64,000 bases of DNA. Origin: Sinorhizobium garamanticum (GTDB lineage Bacteria > Pseudomonadota > Alphaproteobacteria > Rhizobiales > Rhizobiaceae). The translations under genes and the position numbers were made by a program. The notes below the pieces were generated by a model. That model saw only the letters and a program-made list of their open reading frames with translations. It had not been told where the DNA came from and ran no database searches. Of this stretch, positions 15,407 to 64,000 are shown piece after piece. Numbering within the stretch: position 1 is the stretch's first letter; every line of letters starts with the position of its first letter. The stretch covers positions 1,488,001-1,552,000 of the forward strand of contig NZ_CP120374.1 in the NCBI RefSeq assembly GCF_029892065.1, given 5' to 3'.

Positions 15407-15851
15407 CTGTGGCCACCAGAGCTCCAGCACCGACGGCAGCGGATGAATGAGTTCAGGCGCTATCTTCGAGCGTCTTCAGAGCGTACTTTTTTGTCATTTG
15501 GTACGTGAAGCCCGATGTCGGCAACGGGTCGGTCTTTCCGGTTCCGAATCGAACACCTCAGGCTTGGCCTCACGAAAATGCGCCCGCAGGCGGGCCCAGA
15601 GCCGTAGTGGCATGAGCACAATCTTTAGCGCTAAAAGGGACTCTCTTCCGGATGCGGCTTTCTGCGTCCCTGGCCGAGCGAACGATTGGTCGGGATAGGT
15701 CAACCATGCTTTCTTGAAGGCGACATAGTGGCAGAACAGGCAAAATAGCGTGGCAATCGACAGCGCAGGCAATAAGTAATACTTAGTTTATTTCTTGCTT
15801 AATTAGACTTTAGTAGCATAGTCTGGCCGTCCACTGCCTGGGAGGAGCAAG
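15407..15851. other. Intergenic with AT-rich promoter region
   Basis: About 445 bases. The last 75 are strikingly AT-rich and contain a plausible promoter for the gene at 15852 (TTGCTT at 15795-15800, 16-base gap, CATAGT at 15817-15822). A leftward 92-codon frame at 15494-15772 with a TTG start has one hydrophobic segment but no ribosome site; I do not call it. Confidence 0.4.
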
Positions 15852-16040
15852 ATGGAGCATGTCGAAGCCGAAAAGCTTTCGAAGCACACCGTTACCAAGG
15901 TTTGGAACGTCCGCGAATTTTGCCAACAACATCAATTGGGTGAAAAAGAAGAGATCCGACTTCGTCGGCTATTCGGCCGGTTCGCCACAGCTTCCGAGCT
16001 GCAGCATAATGCCAAACGCGCTCCGAAGTGGAGATACTGA
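15852..16040 (+). CDS. Small conserved-looking hypothetical protein
   Basis: 62 residues from the ATG at 15852, preceded by a strong GGGAGGAG ribosome site. It is basic and helical in look: VTKVWNVREFCQQHQLGEKE, then IRLRRLFGRFATASELQHNA and a KRAPKWRY end. It resembles a short protein seen widely in rhizobia that has no known function (from memory, not checked). The AT-rich upstream region suggests regulated expression. Confidence 0.65.
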   Translation: MEHVEAEKLSKHTVTKVWNVREFCQQHQLGEKEEIRLRRLFGRFATASELQHNAKRAPKWRY

Positions 16041-16106
16041 GGTTTGGCGATAGCATCCCGCGTTCATCGCTGACGCTGGCTCGGTCGCAAATGAAGCGGC
16101 GCACCG

Positions 16107-16134
16107 AAAAAAGACCCGGCTCTGTGGTCGGGTC
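16107..16134 (-). terminator. Rho-independent terminator (leftward)
   Basis: On the minus strand GACCCG and CGGGTC form a 6-bp stem around a 10-base loop, followed at once by six Ts (the A-run 16107-16112 on the plus strand). It would end leftward transcription from the small gene at 16342-16524. Confidence 0.5.
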
Positions 16135-16341
16135 GATAACAACGTCTTTCATACGGACACTCTGCGATTGACCCAAACGGCAGTGCTAAAGGCAAACGCA
16201 CGATGCCCTAAGAGCCGCCCCTAACTGAAAGCTATGGGCGTGATCGCTTAACCAATTGTCTTCGGAATCAGTCGCTTGGGACGGCCATGATCGTACCCAA
16301 CCAAGGACATCAATGCTTGCTATCGGACAGTGGAATGCCCC

Positions 16342-16524
16342 TCAAACGAGCGAAAATGCGGAACAGAATTCGTGGTCCGCCTCTCGCCGATCGACGTGGG
16401 CTTCAAGCGCGCAATGAGCCACCGCCGTTGTGGCATCTACGCCATAGAGCTCTATAGCGGCTTCAATTGCGCTGTCCGGATCGAAATTGCCTGCGAAGAC
16501 GCTTTTCACGCGGTCATAACGCAT
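16342..16524 (-). CDS. Small hypothetical protein
   Basis: 60 residues from the ATG at 16524. The central stretch FDPDSAIEAAIELYGVDATT followed by AVAHCALEAHVD is highly ordered and looks like a conserved rhizobial small protein (from memory). The ribosome site is weak (GAGA). The C-terminus may be altered: after ADHEF it ends CSAFSLV where a Trp-rich end would be expected, so a late frameshift is possible. A terminator-like hairpin lies downstream at 16107. Function unknown. Confidence 0.5.
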   Translation of the reverse strand: MRYDRVKSVFAGNFDPDSAIEAAIELYGVDATTAVAHCALEAHVDRREADHEFCSAFSLV

Positions 16525-16971
16525 TTTTCGAAGATTCTCTCAGTCTGAGCTGGCCTGTCCCATGAACCGCATGCCCTGGTTCGTCCACGAGATGGATGTT
16601 CGACTTCCTGCAAGCGGTCCACCCAGCGTGACAGGCTGTTGATCTCGACCAGGCCGTGATCGAAGAGAACGCGAAGCCGGCGCCACGGAGGTCGGTTTCC
16701 GGGTCTGGAAACGCCTGTGGAAAGAAGGTCCGCAACGGCCGATCAGAGCCGATCGTCCCTTGCTCGTCCGTTGTCGTCCCGTTCGTGATCTGCACGGTGT
16801 ATCGGCTCAATTTCCTCTTCGTGAAACACGGTGGCGATCGTCGCCGCAACCGGGCGAACCGCCGGCCCGCCGGAGCGACACTGCGCGATGCTCTTCGACA
16901 TGACAGCCTCATTCACAAGGCCGGCTGGGAGGCGGTCAGACCCGCTCCTTCGCCGGCGAAAGTCTAGGCGA
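16525..16971. other. Intergenic, probably decayed sequence
   Basis: About 450 bases. Overlapping open frames exist on the minus strand but none shows family motifs or a ribosome site. It is most likely gene debris. Confidence 0.4.
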
Positions 16972-17622
16972 TCAATGATCGCTGCCGCTGCGAACACGCT
17001 CGAGGATCGCATCGATCCGAGCTCGCGTATCTTGGCTGTTGGTGTGGGTGATGTAAGGCTGGTCGATTGAGGCAGCCCATGGAACAAGCACGTCGAATTC
17101 GAGCTGTTTGATGGACTCGAGCGTGGCAATGTAGGCGTCTCGATCGTTGGACTCGAGCACCGCTGCGCGCCAATTTCCGTCGTCCAAGTAGACGGTATCG
17201 CCGGTAAAGAGGAATCGGTGTTTGCCGTTGTCCCAGAGGTAGGCTGTGGCGCCTTCCGTATGGCCTGGGGTTGGGATCACCTCAAAGTCACGATCCACCA
17301 TATGGCGATCGGAAAATGTGTCATCGACGCGGCACTTCTCGGAGACGTGATGTCGTTCCAGCTCATGGGACACAAGCGGTGCGCCGAACGTCTCGGCAAT
17401 CGCGCTGCAACCCATGCCCGCTTCGTGCCAATGGTTAAGGTAGCGCCGCGATATGCCGCCCAAACGCCGAACGGATTCCTGATCAGCGGCCAACGTGCCC
17501 ACGTTATAGATAAGCAGGTTTCCTGTTGCCCGCTGAAGCAAGAAAGCGCGAATTGTGGTTTCGGGTGCAAAGGACAGCGGCTCCGGGGAAGATGCATAAA
17601 GGCCGGGAACTACTAGGTCCAT
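16972..17622 (-). CDS. Metallo-beta-lactamase-fold hydrolase
   Basis: 216 residues from the ATG at 17622, chosen for AAGGAGG seven bases upstream. The fold is shown by VVPGLYASSPEPL, NLLIYNVGTLAAD, the metal-site region YLNHWHEAGMG, VIPTPGHTEGATAYLW and FLFTGDTVY. The usual H-x-H-x-D-H signature is altered to N-H-W-H-E-A, so the metal site may be incomplete or changed. Family members hydrolyse glyoxalase II-type thioesters, lactones and others; the substrate here is unknown. It lies downstream of the quinone-stress genes on the same strand, 210 bases away. Confidence 0.82.
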   Translation of the reverse strand: MDLVVPGLYASSPEPLSFAPETTIRAFLLQRATGNLLIYNVGTLAADQESVRRLGGISRRYLNHWHEAGMGCSAIAETFGAPLVSHELERHHVSEKCRVDDTFSDRHMVDRDFEVIPTPGHTEGATAYLWDNGKHRFLFTGDTVYLDDGNWRAAVLESNDRDAYIATLESIKQLEFDVLVPWAASIDQPYITHTNSQDTRARIDAILERVRSGSDH

Positions 17623-54794: not shown

Positions 54795-56558
54795 TTAGAT
54801 GGAGACTCCAGCATCGCGGAGTCCGTCCATCAGTCGATCGAGCAGATTGGGATCCCGGTAGGGTAAAGCCCGCTTGAGGTGATCGACAGAAAAGTTCGGG
54901 TTGACCTCCAGTACCTCACGCCAATAGCGCCGCGCTTCTTCGTGGCGTCCGGTTCGACCATAGAGACAGGCGAGATAAAAGCGCGTCATGTCTGATCGCG
55001 GCGCAAGCGTTAGCCGACGCTTGAAGGCGATCTCGGCCTCGCTAAAGCGCCCGAGGCTCAATAGCGCCCTCCCCAGGAAATGCAGCGACAGGTCGAATTG
55101 CGGGTCAAGCCGGTGAGCCCGTGTATAGAGCGCCAGGGCGTCTTCGTGCCGACCCTGGAAATCCCTTATGCCGCCAAGTGCCGTATAGGCATTGGCCGAA
55201 TTGGGGTCGAGTTCGATCGCCCGCTCTGCAGCGCGCTCCGCCTCATCCAGACGCCGCATAAAGGCAAGGGCAAGCGCGAGTGCGTGATGGCCTTGCGGCT
55301 CGCTATCGTCCGTGTCGATTGCCTTCTGTGCCAGCTCGAACGCCTGTGTGAGATTGTCAGGCGTCGCGCCGTTCCACTGGTTGATGAATTCGGTCAAGGC
55401 GACGATCGAGAGCGAAGCATAGGCAGCCGCCAGCCCCTGATCGATGGCGACGGCGCGCTCCAGCATGCTGCGCGCCTCCAAGGACGAAACGGAGTTGAAG
55501 TGCAGAATGGACTGACGGGCGCGGACGAGCAGGTCATAGGCTTCCGGGTCGACCTTGCCGCGGCTCTCGCGCCGCTCCTCTTCGCCGGCTGTCAGCTTCA
55601 CCTTGAGCGCGTTGACGATAGTGCGGGTCACCTCGTCCTGAACAGCAAAGATATCCTCAAGTCCGCGATCGTAGCGTTCGGCCCAAAGATGACCGCCGGT
55701 CATACCGTCGATCATCTGGGCGTTGATGCGAATGCGGTCGGTGGCCCGGCGCACGCTGCCTTCAAGGATGTAGCGGACGCCGAGTTCCCGGCTCACCTTG
55801 CGGATGTCCGGCGTCTTGCCTTTGTAGGCGAAGGAGGAATTCCGGGCGATGACGAAGAGGCCGGAAACCTTGGAAAGATCCGTGATGATGTCCTCGGTGA
55901 TGCCATCGGCGAAATAACCCTGCTCCGGGTCGCCGGACATGTTGTCAAATGGCAGGACGGCTATCGATGGCTTCTTTGGAAGCTGCGGCGGGGTTTCGGC
56001 AGCAGTCTTGATGGGATTGTTCGTGCGGTCGTTCGGCGACCAGCTCCAGACATGCACCGGGCGCTCGATGTTCTTGACCTCGTGATAGCCGCTGTCGACG
56101 AAATCGATGCCGACGCGGCCATGGACGTATTCGTGGACGCCGTCCGAAATCGCGACGCCGCCGGGATTGGCGAGCGTCTCGAGACGGGCAGCCACGTTGA
56201 CCCCATCGCCGTAAAGGTCGCTGTCCTCGACCATGATGTCGCCCAGGTTAACACCGACGCGGAGAACGATAGCCCGGTCTTCCGGCATGTCTCTGTTCGC
56301 GGCCGCCATGGCCTGCTGAAGGGTCGCGGCGCACTCGACGGCGTTGACGGCGCTGCCGAACTCGACAAACACGCCGTCGCCGGTCCGCTTGAAGACGCGG
56401 CCCTGATGGATTGCGACGAGCGGCTCCAGCACCTCTTTCCACCGCGCCATCAGCAGCGTGTGGGTACTTTTCTCGTCCCGCTCCATAAGCCGGCTGTAAC
56501 CGACCACGTCGGCGGCCAAAATGGCGGCAAGCCGGCGTCTGATGGATTCGTTGGCCAT
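54795..56558 (-). CDS. Class III adenylate cyclase with TolB-like and TPR domains
   Basis: 587 residues from the ATG at 56558. Cyclase domain (1 to about 165): metal Asp in LAADVVGYSRLM, KRTGDGVFVEF with the substrate Lys and second metal Asp, and GVNVAARLE with the transition-state Asn and Arg, so the active site is complete. Then a TolB-type region (about 195-330: SIAVLPFDNMSGDPEQGYFA, DGITEDIITDLSK) and six or so TPR repeats (about 370-560). It should make cAMP in the cytosol in response to a partner bound by the TPRs. Such multi-copy cyclases are typical of rhizobia. Confidence 0.93.
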   Translation of the reverse strand: MANESIRRRLAAILAADVVGYSRLMERDEKSTHTLLMARWKEVLEPLVAIHQGRVFKRTGDGVFVEFGSAVNAVECAATLQQAMAAANRDMPEDRAIVLRVGVNLGDIMVEDSDLYGDGVNVAARLETLANPGGVAISDGVHEYVHGRVGIDFVDSGYHEVKNIERPVHVWSWSPNDRTNNPIKTAAETPPQLPKKPSIAVLPFDNMSGDPEQGYFADGITEDIITDLSKVSGLFVIARNSSFAYKGKTPDIRKVSRELGVRYILEGSVRRATDRIRINAQMIDGMTGGHLWAERYDRGLEDIFAVQDEVTRTIVNALKVKLTAGEEERRESRGKVDPEAYDLLVRARQSILHFNSVSSLEARSMLERAVAIDQGLAAAYASLSIVALTEFINQWNGATPDNLTQAFELAQKAIDTDDSEPQGHHALALALAFMRRLDEAERAAERAIELDPNSANAYTALGGIRDFQGRHEDALALYTRAHRLDPQFDLSLHFLGRALLSLGRFSEAEIAFKRRLTLAPRSDMTRFYLACLYGRTGRHEEARRYWREVLEVNPNFSVDHLKRALPYRDPNLLDRLMDGLRDAGVSI

Positions 56559-56756
56559 ATGCAATGGCGCCTTCCTAGCACCCATTGGCCAAATCTTACT
56601 GCCGTATCGCTGTCATGTCTATTTGGCTTGAGGCTGGCCTTGGTCGACAACCAACGTCAGTACGCAACGTTCACTTGTGCGGCTGCTATCCCCGTTGAAG
56701 GCACGGACGGGAACTTCCGCTCTCCAGCGTTTGCGGCATTTCCGGACCACTAAGCG

Positions 56757-57221
56757 GATGACCGAGCACATTCGCTCTGCCGATGACAGCTCAGCAGAGG
56801 TCAAGCGCTTTCTTGATCGGTACATCGCGCGTGCCGGTCTTGACGCCCCACCACCAGAGGAAGACCCTGCCGAGACGATTGCCGCAAGACTACCTGATCC
56901 ACCGATCCGCTCAATCGACTGGGCGACGATCGGCATTCGATCGGTGATATGGTGCACTGGCTTCAAAGGTAATTTTCGATGGGTGCATCTCAACGGTGCG
57001 CTCGACGCAGTCGGCCAACCGGTCCAAAAAGACGGGATCGGGATCATCACCGCCTCTATTTCACCGGCCTTGATTTCGCATCGACGCGAAAGTCGGGCAC
57101 CATACCTGGAGCTGCGGAAGAGGCAACCCGGCTCGCCAACCACCTGGCAGAAAGAGCATACGACATGCCTAACCGAAAGAACAGCCAGCCGGCGCAACCG
57201 TCGCCGGCCTGTGCTCGCTAA
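56757..57221 (+). pseudogene. FAD-dependent oxidoreductase (flavoprotein monooxygenase type), C-terminal, frameshifted
   Basis: The frame reads AEVKRFLDRYIARAGLDAPP and RLPDPPIRSIDWATIGIRSV then IWCTGFKGNFRWVHL, the C-terminal part of CzcO/flavin monooxygenase-like proteins. Near 57045 it shifts by one base to continue LYFTGLDFASTRKSGTIPG and EEATRLANHLAERAY, the normal end. The N-terminal FAD- and NADPH-binding half is missing. A dead remnant. Confidence 0.7.
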
Positions 57222-57408
57222 AGGTACGAGGCTGGCAAGATGGATCGCAGCTTTGGTTGGCACCTTGAAAGGCGTTTCGGCTACCGCCGATTGACGCCCT
57301 GCGGTAGGAATACGAGGGGGATCCGTCGCAAATAAGTGGTCGCTGCTGACGTTTAACGACAGCGACGTCTATGAAAGCGAGTGTCAGAAACGATGGCAAA
57401 TGGTGGAG

Positions 57409-58113
57409 TCAGCCGGATGTCGATCGGCTAAGCAGGTAGAGGGGCCGCAGAGCTCGCACGCTTGCCGCGAGTGCATCGCAGGTATGGAGCACGCTCAAAC
57501 CGACCATTGCCAAGTGTTTGTGATCCAACGGCAGCGTATTAAACGTCTGATCGATCTCAGCGCTATGTGTTGGATCAAGGTCTCCATGAATTCTCAAAGT
57601 CCTGAACGTTGGCTCCGGCAGTCCCGATCGATCTCGAATCTCATCAATTTTACTGTCCGCAGGAGGAAAAGCCTCAAGCACCGCAATGTATCCGAGAAGC
57701 ATGAGAGGGTGATGGTGCTGAACCCAATAATACTGAGTGCCGACCAGCCGTGCTACTTCGACAGAAGGGGCGATTGATAGAATCCCCTCAGGATTGCATC
57801 CTGCGGTCTCCAGGTCCTCAAGTGCCCAAGTGTCATGGTGTAGTTCCTCGGAAATATGATGTCGGTAATATTTTCCTAGCGAAGGGACAAGCCTATCCGT
57901 TTCTGCCAATTGGTCGCATCGTTCCGCTGCCCACTGCATGAGGGGAACCGACGCCCGCATGATTTGATGAAGCAAGACCAGGAAAGCAATCGTCATTTCC
58001 CGTTGGGGCTCGGTCCGCCAAAGGTTGCTGAAAGCCGCCTTAAGAGCGGGCAAACAGAGCTCAATTCTACCCCTCACAAAGTCACTATTCGCTCGTGTTT
58101 CAAGCATATCCAT
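57409..58113 (-). CDS. Heme-oxygenase-like diiron-type oxidase (HDO superfamily)
   Basis: 234 residues from the ATG at 58113; a GTG at 58197 would add 28 residues and neither start has a strong ribosome site. All-helical. Likely metal ligands lie in KYYRHHISEELHHDTW (residues 81-96), a mid-helix Glu in GYIAVLEAFPP and the late RIHGDLDPTHSAEID (174-188), the pattern of iron-dependent HDO enzymes (relatives of UndA, SznF, TenA/PqqC folds). Such enzymes use O2 for oxidative C-C or C-N chemistry. The gene is divergent from the RiPP operon with about 235 bases between starts, so it probably tailors the peptide; that is inference. Confidence 0.75.
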   Translation of the reverse strand: MDMLETRANSDFVRGRIELCLPALKAAFSNLWRTEPQREMTIAFLVLLHQIMRASVPLMQWAAERCDQLAETDRLVPSLGKYYRHHISEELHHDTWALEDLETAGCNPEGILSIAPSVEVARLVGTQYYWVQHHHPLMLLGYIAVLEAFPPADSKIDEIRDRSGLPEPTFRTLRIHGDLDPTHSAEIDQTFNTLPLDHKHLAMVGLSVLHTCDALAASVRALRPLYLLSRSTSG

Positions 58114-58229
58114 AACGACACCATTCGGTGAACAGCAAACAAAGCCGGGAAATCTTAACTCATTCCAGATACGGTTCAAGTTCGACCCTGATCGCACGCA
58201 CGTAGCCCATTAGTATTAGAGGGTAGTAC

Positions 58230-58259
58230 TGGACAACTATGGAGCCGGCATCCTATTAT
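58230..58259 (+). promoter_or_regulatory. Candidate promoter of the RiPP operon
   Basis: TGGACA at 58230-58235 and TATTAT at 58254-58259 with an 18-base gap, about 90 bases before the peptide start. It lies in the AT-richer divergent region between the oxidase and peptide genes. Confidence 0.45.
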
Positions 58260-58347
58260 TACTGATAGCCAGCGGCTCACGATTCAAAGATCGCTGACAG
58301 CAATCTAGCACGCATCGAAAAACTGTTCAGAGCCTGAGGAGGTGACA

Positions 58348-58551
58348 ATGCCGGGCTTCCAGCCAAATTTCGACCGTCTAAAGAACTCGAATGTCATTCC
58401 CGACGTGGAGGAGAATATGCTCCCGCAGGCGGTACATGACGCGATCGAAAACCTCACCGACGAAGAAATCGCGGTTCTCGAAAACATCAGTAAAAAAACC
58501 GGGTCACACATTTATCTCAACAAGGACCACTCGGTCATCTGTGGATTCTGA
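58348..58551 (+). CDS. Candidate RiPP precursor peptide
   Basis: 67 residues from the ATG at 58348, with a near-perfect GAGGAGG ribosome site five bases upstream (a GTG two codons earlier is less likely). Residues 1-50 look like a leader: acidic and helical, with LPQAVHDAIENLTDEEIAVL. The C-terminal part, SKKTGSHIYLNKDHSVICGF, looks like the core; it holds the only cysteine (Cys65) and ends Cys-Gly-Phe. The YcaO gene starts inside its last codons (11-base overlap), and TfuA follows, so this is very likely the substrate. YcaO/TfuA pairs add backbone thioamides; a change at or near Ile-Cys-Gly-Phe is inferred. It has no similarity I can see to trifolitoxin or thioviridamide precursors. Confidence 0.75.
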   Translation: MPGFQPNFDRLKNSNVIPDVEENMLPQAVHDAIENLTDEEIAVLENISKKTGSHIYLNKDHSVICGF

Positions 58552-59776
58552 AGTCGTGGCGTCGCCCAGCTTGCTGGACCGCTGGCCGCTGTACGACCGC
58601 CGCAATGAGGGGCGTAGCGCCTTAGAAGAGGCCAAACACAGGCTGTTCCTCAAATCAACAATCGATCAAGTCCCGGTAACGCGCATAGCCGATGTCACAT
58701 CGCTCGACGTCTTGGGCACGCCTGTGTTTGCGGCGGTCACTCCCCTGGCAACAGACTTGACCACTCATCTAGGCAAGGGGCTGAACGAGGAAACGGCTCG
58801 CGTCAGTGCCGTTATGGAGGCTGTCGAGAGGGTGTCCGCAGAGGAGCTAGAGAGCGAGTCTCGGCATGCCACTTATCTTGAGCTTACGTCCGCGGGTGCC
58901 AAGGTAGCGGATCCACTGTCCTTCGATCTTCCACCGCTGACTAGCTATCGTCCAGATTCGCCGTTTGAATGGGTCGAGGGTTGGGAACTGGTCAGCGCGC
59001 TTCCGATCTGGGTTCTGGCCGACCTGGCGAGGTCCCCTGCAAAGGAAGGTATACTGGATCAGGTCGATACCAATGGCTTGGCTGCCGGGTTCACTCGTGG
59101 CCGGGCGGTGCGCAGCGCAATTCTGGAGGTTGTCGAACGGGACGCTGTCAGTCAGCATCATTTCTTCCAACAGTATGGATATGAGGGGCACACTGGACCT
59201 AGTAGACGCAGGATTGATCTGGATTCACTTCCTCCCATACCCAAGGCGCTCGCGGAGCGCGCCAAAAAAGCAAACCTAAAACTCATACTGGAAGATCTGA
59301 CGACTGACCTTGAGATTCCAGTCATCTCGAGCACGCTGATAGACCCATTCTTTTGTGGTGCCGCTGGGCCTATGCCGCTTGTCGTTGTAGGTTGGGGCGC
59401 CGACGTTCTGGCCGGAGCCGCCGTTACACATGCTATCCTAGAATCATTCCAATCACGGCTCGGGGTAATTCACGGTGCCCGTGACTCTTACAACCAGGTT
59501 CCAGTATCGCGGCGGGATACCGAACGCAAGTCTTGGGATTCTGGAGCCGAGCATGACTTTTCCACTATTCCTGATACAAACTTGCCGGACCTCGAGACAG
59601 AACTCCAATTTATCTTGGAGAGGCTAAAGTCCGCCGGACTTACGCAGGCCATAGTAATCGACATGAGCCGGAGATCCTTGGGCCTGCCTGTTGTAAGGGT
59701 ACGCGTCCCCGGTCTTTCGCTCTTTACGATAGACCACTGTCGCGTTGGCTGGCGAAGTGCAAGGCACCTGTTGTAA
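58541..59776 (+). CDS. YcaO-domain protein (TfuA-associated)
   Basis: 411 residues from the GTG at 58541; no ATG is available before the conserved region, and the frame upstream of 58541 is the peptide gene read out of frame. ATP/Mg motifs of YcaO are complete: VSAVMEAVERVSAEE (89-103), TNGLAAGFTRGRAVRSAILE then VVERDAV (177-203), and THAILESFQSRLG further on; the C-terminal VVRVRVPGLSLFTID fits. The end is HLL, not the Pro-rich end of azoline-forming enzymes. It activates a peptide amide oxygen with ATP, for thioamide (or azoline) formation. Its stop overlaps the TfuA start (TAATG). Confidence 0.92.
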   Translation: MDSEVVASPSLLDRWPLYDRRNEGRSALEEAKHRLFLKSTIDQVPVTRIADVTSLDVLGTPVFAAVTPLATDLTTHLGKGLNEETARVSAVMEAVERVSAEELESESRHATYLELTSAGAKVADPLSFDLPPLTSYRPDSPFEWVEGWELVSALPIWVLADLARSPAKEGILDQVDTNGLAAGFTRGRAVRSAILEVVERDAVSQHHFFQQYGYEGHTGPSRRRIDLDSLPPIPKALAERAKKANLKLILEDLTTDLEIPVISSTLIDPFFCGAAGPMPLVVVGWGADVLAGAAVTHAILESFQSRLGVIHGARDSYNQVPVSRRDTERKSWDSGAEHDFSTIPDTNLPDLETELQFILERLKSAGLTQAIVIDMSRRSLGLPVVRVRVPGLSLFTIDHCRVGWRSARHLL

Positions 59777-60966
59777 TGACGGCCACGATGCGGATGCCGC
59801 CGGTCGTATTTTTGGGCCCGAGCGCCCCCGCTTCGGATATCTCGTCCATTTTGCCTGACGCGATCATAAGACCTCCAGCGAGGCGAGGGGACCTTTATGC
59901 TTATCGCATCCTGAAGCACGAGTTCTTTTTGATCCTGGATGGCGCATTTGGCAACGTCCTTGCCATTTCGCCACGGGAAGTCGTTGATGTTGTCCAGGAC
60001 GGGGCGGTTGTGGTTGGCGCCTCCAGCATGGGCGCCCTACGAGCCGCGGATTGCCTTCCGGCAGGTGCGCATGGCGTGGGGATCATATTTCGACTATTCA
60101 AGCATCAGGCAATATCCGCCGAGGACGAAGTGGCGGTCCTTTACCGCGAGGAAATGCCTTTTCCGCCGCTTACAGAACCACTGATCAACATGCGGATCGC
60201 TTTGCGACGGGCTACCAGGAAGGGTCTCGTGGGAGCATCCGAAGCCGAGGAAATTATCTCGGCGGCTCAATCGCTTCATTATACTATGCGGACCTGGCCC
60301 GGCGCGTATCAGAAGGCTGGACGGCACCTCCCTAGCGAGATGCTCGACCTTTTGAAGGCCATAGACACAAAGCGCGCCGACGCCATTCTGGCCGCAAAGC
60401 GGGTCTCGAAAATGCGAGAGGCCAGTAAAGCGCCGCTCCGCCGATCCAACTCATCTCAGCTGTTTGGGCTCTTAGGCAACGGCAGGGAACGACCCGCAGA
60501 CGCGTTGAGTGGTCCGGGTCGCCAACAAATTGGACCTGAATTCATCGAATGGCTTTGCTGCTCCGGCAAGGCATACAGATGGTTGCACAGTGAAATTACC
60601 AGGCTCAACGGAGAATTGGTGGCGCCGATCTCATCAGTTTGGAATATTCTTGACGGCTCGGGCGAGCTAGAGACTGAGCTGATGAGGTTCAACGTCTTTA
60701 AGAGGGCCATCTCCGAGGCTCGGCGATGTGGCCTTCGCCCCAGTATCGAGGACCACCGGCAGGCCGAACGTCAGTTGGTGAATGCTCATGGTGTCGATTC
60801 ATGGAATGAGCTCCTCATAAGCATAGGAAACGACTCGTCGTACTCAGAACGGCTAAGCATACATCGCACCCAACTTGCTCTGACCAAGTGCCTTCGACGG
60901 ACATTTTTGTTCGGACCGGGTCAGTCGACAAAGCCGAGAGAGGTGTTGTTATGGCACCCCAAATAG
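59776..60966 (+). CDS. TfuA-like protein
   Basis: 396 residues. The N-terminal core (about 8-140) has the TfuA motifs VVFLGPSAP (10-18), AISPREVVDVVQDGAVVVGA and SSMGALRAADC (83-93). TfuA proteins partner YcaO enzymes in thioamide formation, probably by supplying sulfur or by positioning the substrate. The C-terminal 250 residues are helical and not part of the core. In-frame ATGs at 59788 and 59794 are alternative starts. It overlaps YcaO by one base and the next gene by 16, so all are translated together. Confidence 0.92.
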   Translation: MTATMRMPPVVFLGPSAPASDISSILPDAIIRPPARRGDLYAYRILKHEFFLILDGAFGNVLAISPREVVDVVQDGAVVVGASSMGALRAADCLPAGAHGVGIIFRLFKHQAISAEDEVAVLYREEMPFPPLTEPLINMRIALRRATRKGLVGASEAEEIISAAQSLHYTMRTWPGAYQKAGRHLPSEMLDLLKAIDTKRADAILAAKRVSKMREASKAPLRRSNSSQLFGLLGNGRERPADALSGPGRQQIGPEFIEWLCCSGKAYRWLHSEITRLNGELVAPISSVWNILDGSGELETELMRFNVFKRAISEARRCGLRPSIEDHRQAERQLVNAHGVDSWNELLISIGNDSSYSERLSIHRTQLALTKCLRRTFLFGPGQSTKPREVLLWHPK

Positions 60967-63596
60967 CAAGTCGGCCTCAATTGTCAGGCGACAGCGTTTG
61001 CATGCTCTTCACTGACATTGAGGGGTCAACAAACCTGGTGGATTCTTATCCTGACCTCTACGATCAGATGCTCCTTCGGCACAATGAACTTTTGCGGAGC
61101 GCCATCCACTCTTATGGTGGCGAAGAAATAAACGTTGCTGGAGACTCTGTATTCGCACTCTTTCCCGCCTCGGCCCAAGGGGTTCAGGCAGCGATTGATG
61201 CACAATTTGCTTTGACGAAGGAGGAATGGGCTCAAGGATGCAAGCCACTGGTTCGGATGGGGCTGCATTCCGGAAAGGTGAGAAGATACGATGCCGCCAT
61301 AACCGGAATAGAGGTGCATCGTGCAGCTCGTATCGCATCGGTGGCACATGGAGGTCAGATCGTCATTTCGAATGTTGTCCGCGATGAGATAGCAGAAGAC
61401 CCTATCGGGCCGAATGTAGAAATACGCGATCTCGGTTTCCACCGCCTCAAGGACCTTCGATATCCTGAAGCGCTGTTCGATCTAGTGATCCCGGGACTGA
61501 AAAGCGATTTTGCACCGCTCTCATCTATCGGCACCAATCGCACCAACCTCCCGTCCGATGTGTCAGTTCTCTACGGTCGAACGTCAGAACTAGCCCGGCT
61601 GAATCGAATCATAGCAAATAAGCAGAGCCGAATTGTTACGCTGACGGGCGCCGGCGGTGTGGGCAAGACCAGCTTGGCGATCCACGCTGGTAGATCAGCA
61701 CTGAGCTCCTTTTCACGGGGAGTGTTCTTCGTACAGTTGGAAGAAATCGACAATCCGGATCTAATCGCTTCGGAGATCTGCAAGGCTGTTGGCCTGCAGG
61801 AGGTACCCGGAATCTCCGCCGTAGAAACGGTATGCAACTCGCTGGGCGGCGCTGAGGCGTTGCTAATACTCGACACCTTCGAGCACCTCGTCCAAGGTGC
61901 ACCAATTATAAACACCATCCTCAGGAGATGTCCGGCTGTGACCATTGTGGCCACCAGTCGTGAACCCCTCAAGTTGCGCTCGGAAACCGAATTCGTTGTA
62001 CCCCCCCTCACTCCTCCCGATGAAGGGGCGAACGTCGATCAAATTCGAGAGAACCCATCTGTGCAGCTCTTTGAAAATTTCGTGCACCGCGAACGGCCAG
62101 ACTACAGATTGGGAAACGACACATTGGCTTTGATCTCCAGAATATGCCGGAGACTCGACGGGCTACCGTTGGCACTTGAACTGGCAGCCTCGCATGTTGG
62201 GCTCCTGAGTGTGGCGGAGTTGGAGGACCGGCTTCAGACCAGAATGCAGGACCTTCCGAGCAAGGCGCGGGATATTGATCCCCGTCACCGCACCCTTCGT
62301 CTGATGATCGGATGGAGCGACCATCTCCTGACGGAAAGCCAGCGCGGGGTTTTTTATGCGTCGGCTGTCTTCAATGGTGGGTTCGATCTCCGAGCCGTCG
62401 AATCCTTATTCGAGGGCGATGTTGAAGTAGTTGACCAAGTGGAGGCTCTTCTGGACAAGAGCTTGTTGTTCAGGACGACGGCGCTAGGTCGCCCGCGCCT
62501 CAACATGCTGGATACGGTTCGCGATTTTGCACTCGATAAGCTGCGAGAGTCAGGCGACTACGAAACTATGCGTATCCGTCAAGCGGACCATTTTACCGAG
62601 CTTGTTCTGTCAGCCGCGCCAAATGTGATGAGATTCAATCAGCGCGACTTTGTCGAGGACCTGATGCAGGAATCTGGAAACATTCGGATGGCACTTGCAT
62701 GGCGGATGAAGCAATCCAACGCACTGGAATCCGTCAAGCTCATCGAGGCGCTGAGGTGGTTTTGGATATCAAGAGGCCAGTTTTCGGAAGCGAGAACATG
62801 GTCGGATAAGGCTTTGAAGCATGCGCGGACTACGGGCGAGCCGGAGCCGCTGGCGCGGATTTTGAACTCAGCTGCTTTGATCCAATACATGTCTGGTGAT
62901 CCTGAAACAGCGCGTGAATATGGCGTTGAAAGTTACCGAATCTACTCCGAGCTGGGGAATAAGGCTGGAATCGCAGGTGCCGGGATTATTGCCGGCATCG
63001 CGAAAGCCACTGCTGGCGATCCCGAGGCAGGTGGCATGCTGATCGGGGAGTCACTAGAACTGTCGAGGCTCATCGGCGATGACTATGGAACCGCGCTTGC
63101 CCTTATTGCAATTGGCGAAGGGACACGCGCTGAAGGGGACGAGACTGCAGCCGAAGCCCACTACCATGATGCCCTCAAACTGCTCGACAAGCTGGGTGAC
63201 ACCTATTGGCCCGGGCACCTGTTGCAAAACCTTGCCCATTTCCGACTGCATAGTGGTGACTGGAGGAACGCTGCAGTCCTCGCGGGGCAGGCCTTGGCCA
63301 TCGGCGAGAGATATGATTATCCAATGGTAGTGAACCTCGCGATCGCAGCGATAAGCGGAGTGCTCGCAGCCAAAGGGGATTGGGATGGTGCTGCAGAGAT
63401 CATCGGGGCAGTCAACGGCCGTCTCGCTCGCCTGGGGGTCCGGTTTGAGCCCACAGACGATGCCGATTTTCAAAAAATCGTGTCAGCGGTCCGCAAGATA
63501 TTAGGAAACAAGCGATTCACCCGCAGTACCGACAACGGAGCTAGGCGCCACTGGGACGAGATACTTTCGTCATGCCGGGCTGCCGTTGCAAGTTAG
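60951..63596 (+). CDS. Cyclase-like domain / NB-ARC-type ATPase / TPR regulator
   Basis: 881 residues from the ATG at 60951 (AGAGAGG upstream; earlier in-frame starts lie deep in tfuA). Residues 12-190 are a class III cyclase homology domain with both metal aspartates (Asp22 in FTDIEGST, Asp65 in VAGDSVFALF). However, the substrate Lys is Asn61 and the transition-state Asn is His123 (GIEVHRAARI), so catalysis is doubtful. Then a STAND-type ATPase: P-loop GAGGVGKTS (about 233), LLILDTFEHLV (about 303), GLPLALELAASH (about 402). TPR repeats fill about 590-850. It is the last gene of the RiPP operon and probably senses a signal or controls expression. Confidence 0.9.
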   Translation: MAPQIASRPQLSGDSVCMLFTDIEGSTNLVDSYPDLYDQMLLRHNELLRSAIHSYGGEEINVAGDSVFALFPASAQGVQAAIDAQFALTKEEWAQGCKPLVRMGLHSGKVRRYDAAITGIEVHRAARIASVAHGGQIVISNVVRDEIAEDPIGPNVEIRDLGFHRLKDLRYPEALFDLVIPGLKSDFAPLSSIGTNRTNLPSDVSVLYGRTSELARLNRIIANKQSRIVTLTGAGGVGKTSLAIHAGRSALSSFSRGVFFVQLEEIDNPDLIASEICKAVGLQEVPGISAVETVCNSLGGAEALLILDTFEHLVQGAPIINTILRRCPAVTIVATSREPLKLRSETEFVVPPLTPPDEGANVDQIRENPSVQLFENFVHRERPDYRLGNDTLALISRICRRLDGLPLALELAASHVGLLSVAELEDRLQTRMQDLPSKARDIDPRHRTLRLMIGWSDHLLTESQRGVFYASAVFNGGFDLRAVESLFEGDVEVVDQVEALLDKSLLFRTTALGRPRLNMLDTVRDFALDKLRESGDYETMRIRQADHFTELVLSAAPNVMRFNQRDFVEDLMQESGNIRMALAWRMKQSNALESVKLIEALRWFWISRGQFSEARTWSDKALKHARTTGEPEPLARILNSAALIQYMSGDPETAREYGVESYRIYSELGNKAGIAGAGIIAGIAKATAGDPEAGGMLIGESLELSRLIGDDYGTALALIAIGEGTRAEGDETAAEAHYHDALKLLDKLGDTYWPGHLLQNLAHFRLHSGDWRNAAVLAGQALAIGERYDYPMVVNLAIAAISGVLAAKGDWDGAAEIIGAVNGRLARLGVRFEPTDDADFQKIVSAVRKILGNKRFTRSTDNGARRHWDEILSSCRAAVAS

Positions 63597-63693
63597 GGTA
63601 TAGATTAAAACACGGCTTCGGACCTGTTCAGGGCCCTGAGATGACGGGCGTGACGACCGCGCCAGCTGGCGACGACGGCGCATGCTTTACAGC

Positions 63694-63825
63694 CTAGTAG
63701 TTGGTCGGCACTATTGCCGGTCTAGTGGGTGGCGGCTCATCTGCTGGATTAAACGCCAGGATGCTCATCACAACAGCGATAAGGATGCTAATGAGGGCCA
63801 GAAAGGCCATTCCCGTTCTATCCAT
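63694..63825 (-). CDS. Very small membrane protein
   Basis: 43 residues from the ATG at 63825: a membrane helix (MAFLALISILIAVVMSILAF) followed by a short Pro-rich tail NPADEPPPTRPAIVPTNY. The build is like the 67-residue protein at 5149. The ribosome site is weak. It faces the RiPP operon end and could be unrelated to it. Confidence 0.4.
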   Translation of the reverse strand: MDRTGMAFLALISILIAVVMSILAFNPADEPPPTRPAIVPTNY

Positions 63826-64000
63826 ACCGCATTTTGGTGAGGTGAATGTGCGCAAAACGCGGCACCGAGCAGGGGGAATTTAGACGCTGGCTGTCGTGGT
63901 AAATTTGCCTTACCGCAGGCCTGGCAAATGGTAAGCCGCGTAACCACGAGAAAACCGTCGATCCCAGGTCGTGCACCGATAGGCCAAAGTCGTTCTCGTT
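63826..64000. other. Window end, no gene recognised
   Basis: The last 175 bases show no supported gene; any frame continuing beyond the window cannot be judged. Confidence 0.4.

Follow-up and report, generated by a model that had tools for sequence, protein, structure and literature searches.

A conserved five-gene YcaO–TfuA cassette with a precursor peptide, a heme-oxygenase-like oxidase and a STAND protein in Sinorhizobium garamanticum and other rhizobia

Organisation of the locus

The window analysed here is a 64,000-nt stretch of the Sinorhizobium garamanticum contig NZ_CP120374.1, and all coordinates are positions within it unless another locus is named. Five genes occupy 57409-63596. 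The minus strand encodes a heme-oxygenase-like dimetal oxidase (HDO); reading away from it on the plus strand are the genes of a small peptide, a YcaO, a TfuA and a cyclase-like/NB-ARC/TPR protein of the STAND type. The features of this cassette, a candidate locus for a ribosomally synthesised and post-translationally modified peptide (RiPP), are the following.

57409..58113, minus strand: HDO, 234 amino acids (aa) from ATG 58113; the open reading frame (ORF) stays open to GTG 58197
58114..58347, no strand: divergent intergenic region between HDO and peptide, aligned across nine loci; ribosome-binding site GAGGAGG at 58336-58342
58348..58551, plus strand: precursor peptide, 67 aa; ~50 N-terminal residues leader-like (LTDEEIAVLENIS helix), C-terminal TGSHIYLNKDHSVICGF
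58540..58548, plus strand: C-terminal Cys-Gly-Phe codons of the peptide; putative thioglycine Gly66 and putative HDO target Phe67
58541..59776, plus strand: YcaO; start uncertain (58541, 58556 or 58571)
59776..60966, plus strand: TfuA, 396 aa; TfuA core ~10-212, C-terminal extension ~213-396
60951..63596, plus strand: class III cyclase-like (probably degenerate)/NB-ARC (STAND)/TPR protein, 881 aa from ATG 60951

Gene calls and Pfam confirm the five genes that the initial annotation had described. The HDO matches PF14518 at 38.4 bits (cut-off 28.9), and the guanylate-cyclase-like, NB-ARC and TPR domains of the last gene all exceed their cut-offs. YcaO (PF02624, 210.1 bits, 6.7e-62, cut-off 25.7) and the adjacent TfuA (PF07812, 116.2 bits, 9.4e-34, cut-off 30) do so as well, and a precursor gene under selection lies in the same operon.

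The plus-strand genes had been described as overlapping by 11, 1 and 16 bases. The overlap between YcaO and TfuA is indeed 1 base, and that between TfuA and the STAND gene is 16 bases provided that the latter starts at ATG 60951. The 11-base overlap between peptide and YcaO is doubtful on alignment: the GTG 58541 on which it is based reads GCG in two of nine aligned loci (L006 and L008), so the true YcaO start is probably later, at GTG 58556 or TTG 58571, neither of which is conserved in every locus. The HDO probably starts at ATG 58113, because a 2-base gap lies upstream of this codon in two of the nine loci (L008 and L012) and, in a structure model of the long form, the predicted local distance difference test score (pLDDT) of residues 1-34 is below 50. 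A promoter-like TGGACA-18-TATTAT at 58230-58259 is weak evidence for a promoter, being one site in a scan in which 0.5 were expected by chance. An Rfam scan over 56600-64000 gave nothing at gathering scores, and no direct repeats of 16 bases or longer bracket the cassette.

A precursor peptide under purifying selection

The peptide is a real gene under purifying selection. Across nine loci, its median ratio of nonsynonymous to synonymous substitution (dN/dS) is 0.25 (36 pairs), whereas the shifted frames give 0.88 (35 pairs) and 1.87 (34 pairs); GGAG precedes the peptide ATG in all nine. The dN/dS values, the ribosome-binding site and the conservation of the peptide rule out a chance ORF or a pseudogene. 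Conservation covers much of the C-terminal half, and the tail of the window peptide (...SVICGF) is single, with no repeat and no APR motif.

Three database searches yield 50 homologues of the peptide at E <=1, of which P0050 (E 0.4) and the 31-aa fragment P0051 (E 0.79) are weak members. The last residue is F, L, Y or I in 46 of the 50; three of the remaining four are short (31-39 aa) and the other, P0020, extends beyond the motif. A (C/M/A)-G-(F/L/Y) tail ends 37 of the 50. When the window peptide is included, the residue at position -3 in these 38 tails is C in 33, M in four and A in one, the Gly at -2 being imposed by the search pattern. The MGL and AGL tails indicate that the Cys is dispensable, which argues against its heterocyclisation.

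What the peptide ends in correlates with the enzymes encoded beside it, and this correlation is new. Gly occupies position -2 in 11/11 loci with YcaO–TfuA (the window, L004-L009, L012, L013, L014 and L026, three of which were first found through peptide similarity) versus 0/2 loci without adjacent YcaO–TfuA. Together with the F/L/Y/I ends, this suggests that Gly66 is converted to thioglycine and that the HDO oxidises residue 67.

Conservation as a unit and mobility

The cassette is conserved as a whole. A scan of genome contigs recovers six YcaO-matching loci, in Rhizobium giardinii, R. herbae, Ensifer aridi, Ensifer sp. MPMI2T, Rhizobium sp. BK313 and Sinorhizobium sp. 8-89, and all six have the five genes in unchanged order and orientation. 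The five genes are also present in L026 (a Sinorhizobium fredii SMH12 plasmid), L029 and L030, which brings the relatives to nine. In the flanks of these ten loci, window included, no ORF of at least 120 aa recurs at the same place; likeness is limited to scattered protein matches of up to ~46% identity and, in some pairs, short stretches of DNA, part of them next to the cassette. Nor does any gene for a transporter or a protease recur among the ten loci, a claim of non-recurrence, as flank genes were not annotated for these functions; to that extent the lack of an export or protease partner, as first proposed, is borne out.

The distribution is sporadic. The peptide is found in 5/394 family genomes, its own included, and in 0/7 other genomes of the genus; four plasmid records carry the cassette, all from S. 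fredii. The left-neighbour gene is present in 5/7 same-genus genomes at 84-87% identity, and this homology stops at ~56578 (56726 in one). That neighbour, at 54795-56585, is an adenylate-cyclase-like/TPR gene. The lower GC content noted at the outset stands in part: GC is 54-57% at 57-64 kb versus 60-67% at 32-57 kb, and of the 13 loci fetched, 12 have a cassette lower in GC than either flank (L008 is the exception; L005 and L031 are the same locus), but single kilobases near the start of the window, in its first 25 kb, are equally low (53.9%). Windowed identity places R. giardinii nearer over 58650-59900 and 60400-60900, and Ensifer sp. MPMI2T nearer over 57400-58400, 59900-60400 and 60900-61400; stretches that are closest to different relatives argue that cassettes recombine. 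As part of an overall explanation that is modestly favoured, the cassette would be a self-contained RiPP unit that moves horizontally between rhizobia and is accessory in its genus. In L032, a ~1.4-kb multi-copy element (15540-17000, right of the window and ~2 kb beyond the cassette), with four copies of 92-94% identity in genome G373, is probably an insertion sequence.

A distinct YcaO clade

YcaO matches occur in 121/394 family genomes. The five best YcaOs (47-100% identity) come with HDO, TfuA and peptide in 5/5 genomes, the peptide of the most divergent of them (G064) being detected by a profile hidden Markov model (HMM). The initial annotation had named homologous pairs that lack peptide and oxidase as evidence against it; all close YcaOs (at least 47% identity) have both. 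Among the next 25 YcaO loci (29-35% identity), TfuA is matched in 22, and HDO and peptide are found in 0/25 each within ~1.5 kb.

The best NCBIfam match of the YcaO is TIGR03266, a model for McrA-glycine thioamidation (218.5 bits against a cut-off of 365), and that of the TfuA is NF033432 (152.1 bits, below the 235.2 cut-off). The TfuA is long, at 394-407 aa in the relatives versus ORFs of 239 and 275 aa for the two other TfuAs of its own genome; the mean pLDDT of its structure model is 57.7, and hence no claims about fold are drawn from that model.

The S. garamanticum genome has two further YcaO–TfuA pairs. Upstream of one (L033 8709-10903; contig C2, ~1282 kb) lie a 72-aa ORF that may encode a precursor and the gene of a 622-aa TPR protein; the 19 kb retrieved for this locus contain no HDO match. 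The other (L034 5937-11030; C1, another contig, ~2804 kb) has a TIGR03903-like 1031-aa cyclase/AAA protein upstream (8.1e-90, below cut-off), which points to cyclase/ATPase proteins as recurrent partners of YcaO–TfuA clusters.

The HDO and loci that separate the parts

The HDO has a heme-oxygenase-like fold with three His and three carboxylate ligands, and metal binding is predicted. E118, H121, E175, H204, D208 and H211 are invariant in 8/8 sequences, in a register that matches the solved structure 3dde; the three-His/three-carboxylate motif of HDOs is described in PMC13108848.

Three loci show which parts of the cassette can be separated. Genome G064 encodes HDO, YcaO, TfuA and a peptide with the tail MGL, whose sequence matches exactly one named Mesorhizobium sp. 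L-8-10; in place of the STAND gene it has that of another cyclase/AAA protein, similar to TIGR03903 (TOMM kinase/cyclase; 2.6e-119, below cut-off). G067 (Mesorhizobium sp. YM1C-6-2 by protein) has an HDO of 40% identity, a near-full-length STAND relative (36%) and a peptide of 57 aa that ends in PMMF and resembles the window peptide in its leader (33.2 bits to NF045560, cut-off 30); no YcaO or TfuA match is found within 20 kb, and no YcaO genome-wide. In G1405 (Thalassotalea sp. G2M2-11 by protein), a 60-aa peptide with the tail GIVI overlaps its HDO, a papain-like (C1) peptidase follows, and the sole YcaO sits on another contig. This locus (L081 7489-9379), from another class, is a candidate RiPP operon of the HDO-only kind that includes a protease.

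HDO with a similar-leader peptide but without adjacent YcaO–TfuA, in two loci, one of them in a YcaO-free genome, is a new observation. Because G067 and G1405 keep both HDO and peptide, these appear to be the constant pair while YcaO–TfuA comes and goes, and the retention of HDO in relatives without sulfur genes suggests that a little-studied peptide-modification system is built around the HDO. This pairing seems confined to a single HDO clade. In weaker HDO loci (E >1e-20; 52 fetched, one a duplicate, one scan covering loci for 30 of 82 matches), the HMM detected no peptide below E 0.5 (two chance-level matches, 0.56 and 0.96), and within ~1.5 kb there is no YcaO, TfuA or STAND match at E <=0.01, with one weak TPR match in L055. 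The absence of these partners from the loci fetched speaks against a general HDO–RiPP pairing.

The cyclase-like/STAND/TPR protein

The last gene combines a Walker A motif (GAGGVGKT) in its STAND ATPase with a cyclase domain that is probably degenerate, as judged from its residues. Both metal-binding Asp are retained in 11/11 sequences. The usual substrate Lys, which we take to lie three residues before GD, is absent in 11/11 (N in ten, I in L027), whereas Ma1120 has Lys there; its absence makes cyclic-nucleotide synthesis doubtful. At the positions presumed for the class III substrate Asp and transition-state Asn, neither residue is present in any of the 11 sequences (the Asn position is His, and L030 has an Asp one residue earlier). 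The solved relative Ma1120 likewise has no transition-state Asn in this register.

A proposed pathway

From what is directly established, namely the genes, their conservation as a unit, the purifying selection on the peptide, an oxidase with the fold and ligands of an HDO, and a C-terminal motif that varies with enzyme content, we infer the chemistry, its sites, the order of reactions and the STAND role. The substrate would be the 67-aa peptide. YcaO and the long TfuA would swap a backbone amide oxygen for sulfur, most likely at Gly66, to give thioglycine. The HDO, a predicted dinuclear metal oxidase, would then oxidise the neighbouring C-terminal residue 67 (Phe, Leu or Tyr), probably binding its free carboxylate, so that this residue would be either desaturated, as by VarO, or oxidatively decarboxylated, as by UndA. 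Given that the cassette has no recurrent transporter or protease gene, the product may remain intracellular, or host proteins may trim and export it. For the cyclase-like/NB-ARC/TPR protein, the likeliest role is to sense the modified peptide or to control the pathway, and this is the weakest step. A five-gene RiPP cassette with C-terminal thioglycine, HDO oxidation and STAND sensing or control is, taken whole, the explanation to which we incline, with modest confidence.

This chemistry has precedents elsewhere. McrA thioglycine requires YcaO–TfuA (PMC5589413). The thioamide of thiovarsolin lies between Pro and Arg, directly before the Arg that is desaturated by VarO (PMC6511847), and MboA, an HDO, acts on a tripeptide at its C-terminal Arg, with the C-terminus of the tripeptide bound to Fe1 as a ligand (PMC13185094).

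Relation to known systems

The initial annotation knew of no pathway that combines YcaO–TfuA with this type of peptide, an HDO and a STAND ATPase; as regards the HDO, this has to be withdrawn. The thiovarsolin genes varA/varY/varT/varO of Streptomyces varsoviensis (PMC6511847) share with the cassette a precursor, YcaO, TfuA and a heme-oxygenase-like protein. The likeness extends to an oxidised residue adjoining the thioamide (thio-Pro before dehydro-Arg in thiovarsolin, a proposed thioglycine before residue 67 here) and to the absence of a cluster protease. The thiovarsolin precursor, however, has a repeated APR core, whereas the cassette peptide has a single C-terminal xG(F/L/Y) end, and the repeated APR/GPR core of the thiovarsolin family is absent from the window peptide. 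Thiovarsolin also has amidinotransferase, ATP-grasp and MFS genes where the cassette has a cyclase/STAND gene, and comes from Actinobacteria rather than rhizobia. Closer to home, Malit et al. 2021 (PMC8120280) mention in one sentence a heme-oxygenase-like gene in several Sinorhizobium TfuA clusters. These clusters probably belong to the same locus family, S. fredii carrying the cassette; the part of that paper available gives no precursor, STAND gene or mechanism for them, and its main text does not have the word cyclase.

The nearest NCBIfam relatives, the McrA thioamidation proteins (TIGR03266/NF033432), belong to a system in which the conversion of Gly to thioGly is known (PMC5589413). Its substrate, by contrast, is a large enzyme, the TfuA model has 211 positions versus 396 aa here, and the cassette proteins score far below the cut-offs. 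Aroma-sacti precursors (NF045560) share the leader-like helix; the G067 relative scores above the cut-off of this model and the window peptide below it (16.4 bits, cut-off 30), and a radical-SAM domain is absent from the cassette's five proteins by Pfam.

Cyclase/ATPase partners are also already represented in NCBIfam by models for modified-peptide systems. By their descriptions, TIGR03903 (TOMM kinase/cyclase), TIGR04510 (mod_pep_cyc) and NF041717 (HaaT) are modified-peptide cyclase and/or ATPase-TPR proteins, and a TIGR03903-like protein occupies the STAND slot in L028. The window STAND protein, with its probably degenerate cyclase domain, falls below every one of these cut-offs (TIGR04510, 24.8 of 400; HaaT, 81.8 of 1125; no entry for TIGR03903). 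What holds of the first description, as borne out by gene content and conservation, is a compact YcaO–TfuA locus of RiPP type that includes an HDO of its own and a cyclase-like/NB-ARC/TPR protein. Among the titles and abstract openings listed in searches of the open-access literature, no account was found of the five-gene unit, the precursor family, the YcaO-free HDO–peptide loci or the correlation between Gly and C-terminus.

Alternative explanations

The most serious alternative stays close to thiovarsolin: the same enzymes would act, host peptidases would release a short, protease-resistant thioamidated C-terminal fragment for secretion as the actual product, and the STAND protein would be a pathway-specific regulator only. 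Thiovarsolins are themselves tripeptides plausibly released by host peptidases without a cluster protease (PMC6511847), and no protease or transporter gene recurs among the cassette loci. The window peptide, however, has neither a repeated core nor an APR motif, and the conservation of its C-terminal half exceeds what a di- or tripeptide product would need, which leaves this explanation possible but distinctly less probable than the proposed pathway. By analogy, the product could instead be an antibacterial, bacteriocin-like RiPP directed against related rhizobia. TfuA is named after a rhizobial toxin, and the sporadic distribution (5/394 family genomes, four S. fredii plasmid records) would fit; with no immunity, export or protease gene recurring with the unit and the STAND protein conserved instead, such a role is unlikely.

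Further from the pathway favoured here, YcaO–TfuA might install its thioamide in a protein of the host, as happens with McrA and uL16, the peptide serving only as a regulator or as HDO substrate. The McrA modifiers are indeed the best NCBIfam matches and the HDO–peptide pair occurs without adjacent YcaO, but the YcaOs of this clade are always accompanied by the peptide (5/5) and its Gly at -2 is restricted to YcaO–TfuA loci; we regard this as very improbable. Least credible of all is an anti-phage defence system made up of a Pycsar-like cyclase and a STAND effector, with the peptide as a small effector. The last gene has weak PADLOC matches (TPR, 1.2e-06; PycC, 8e-05; PDC-S27), while the other four proteins have none at E <=0.01, the cyclase domain is without its usual Lys, and modification enzymes are central to the locus.

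Significance

Only one pathway, that of thiovarsolin, in which timing and physiological substrate are unclear, is known for HDOs on ribosomal peptides in the sources consulted, and it is the one cited for this by a 2026 HDO review. A broader and tentative proposal, on which we would place limited weight, is a RiPP class defined by HDO action on the free C-terminal residue of a precursor with an aroma-sacti-like leader, in which YcaO–TfuA is an optional add-on for a thioglycine next to that residue and the modified, unexported peptide serves as an intracellular ligand of a STAND/pseudo-cyclase receptor. The family consists of short, genetically simple Gram-negative systems with natural versions that have and lack the thioamide machinery, which makes both the C-terminal action of the HDO and the role of YcaO–TfuA testable by simple co-expression. 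It would also supply a concrete ligand candidate for a STAND/cyclase-like protein.

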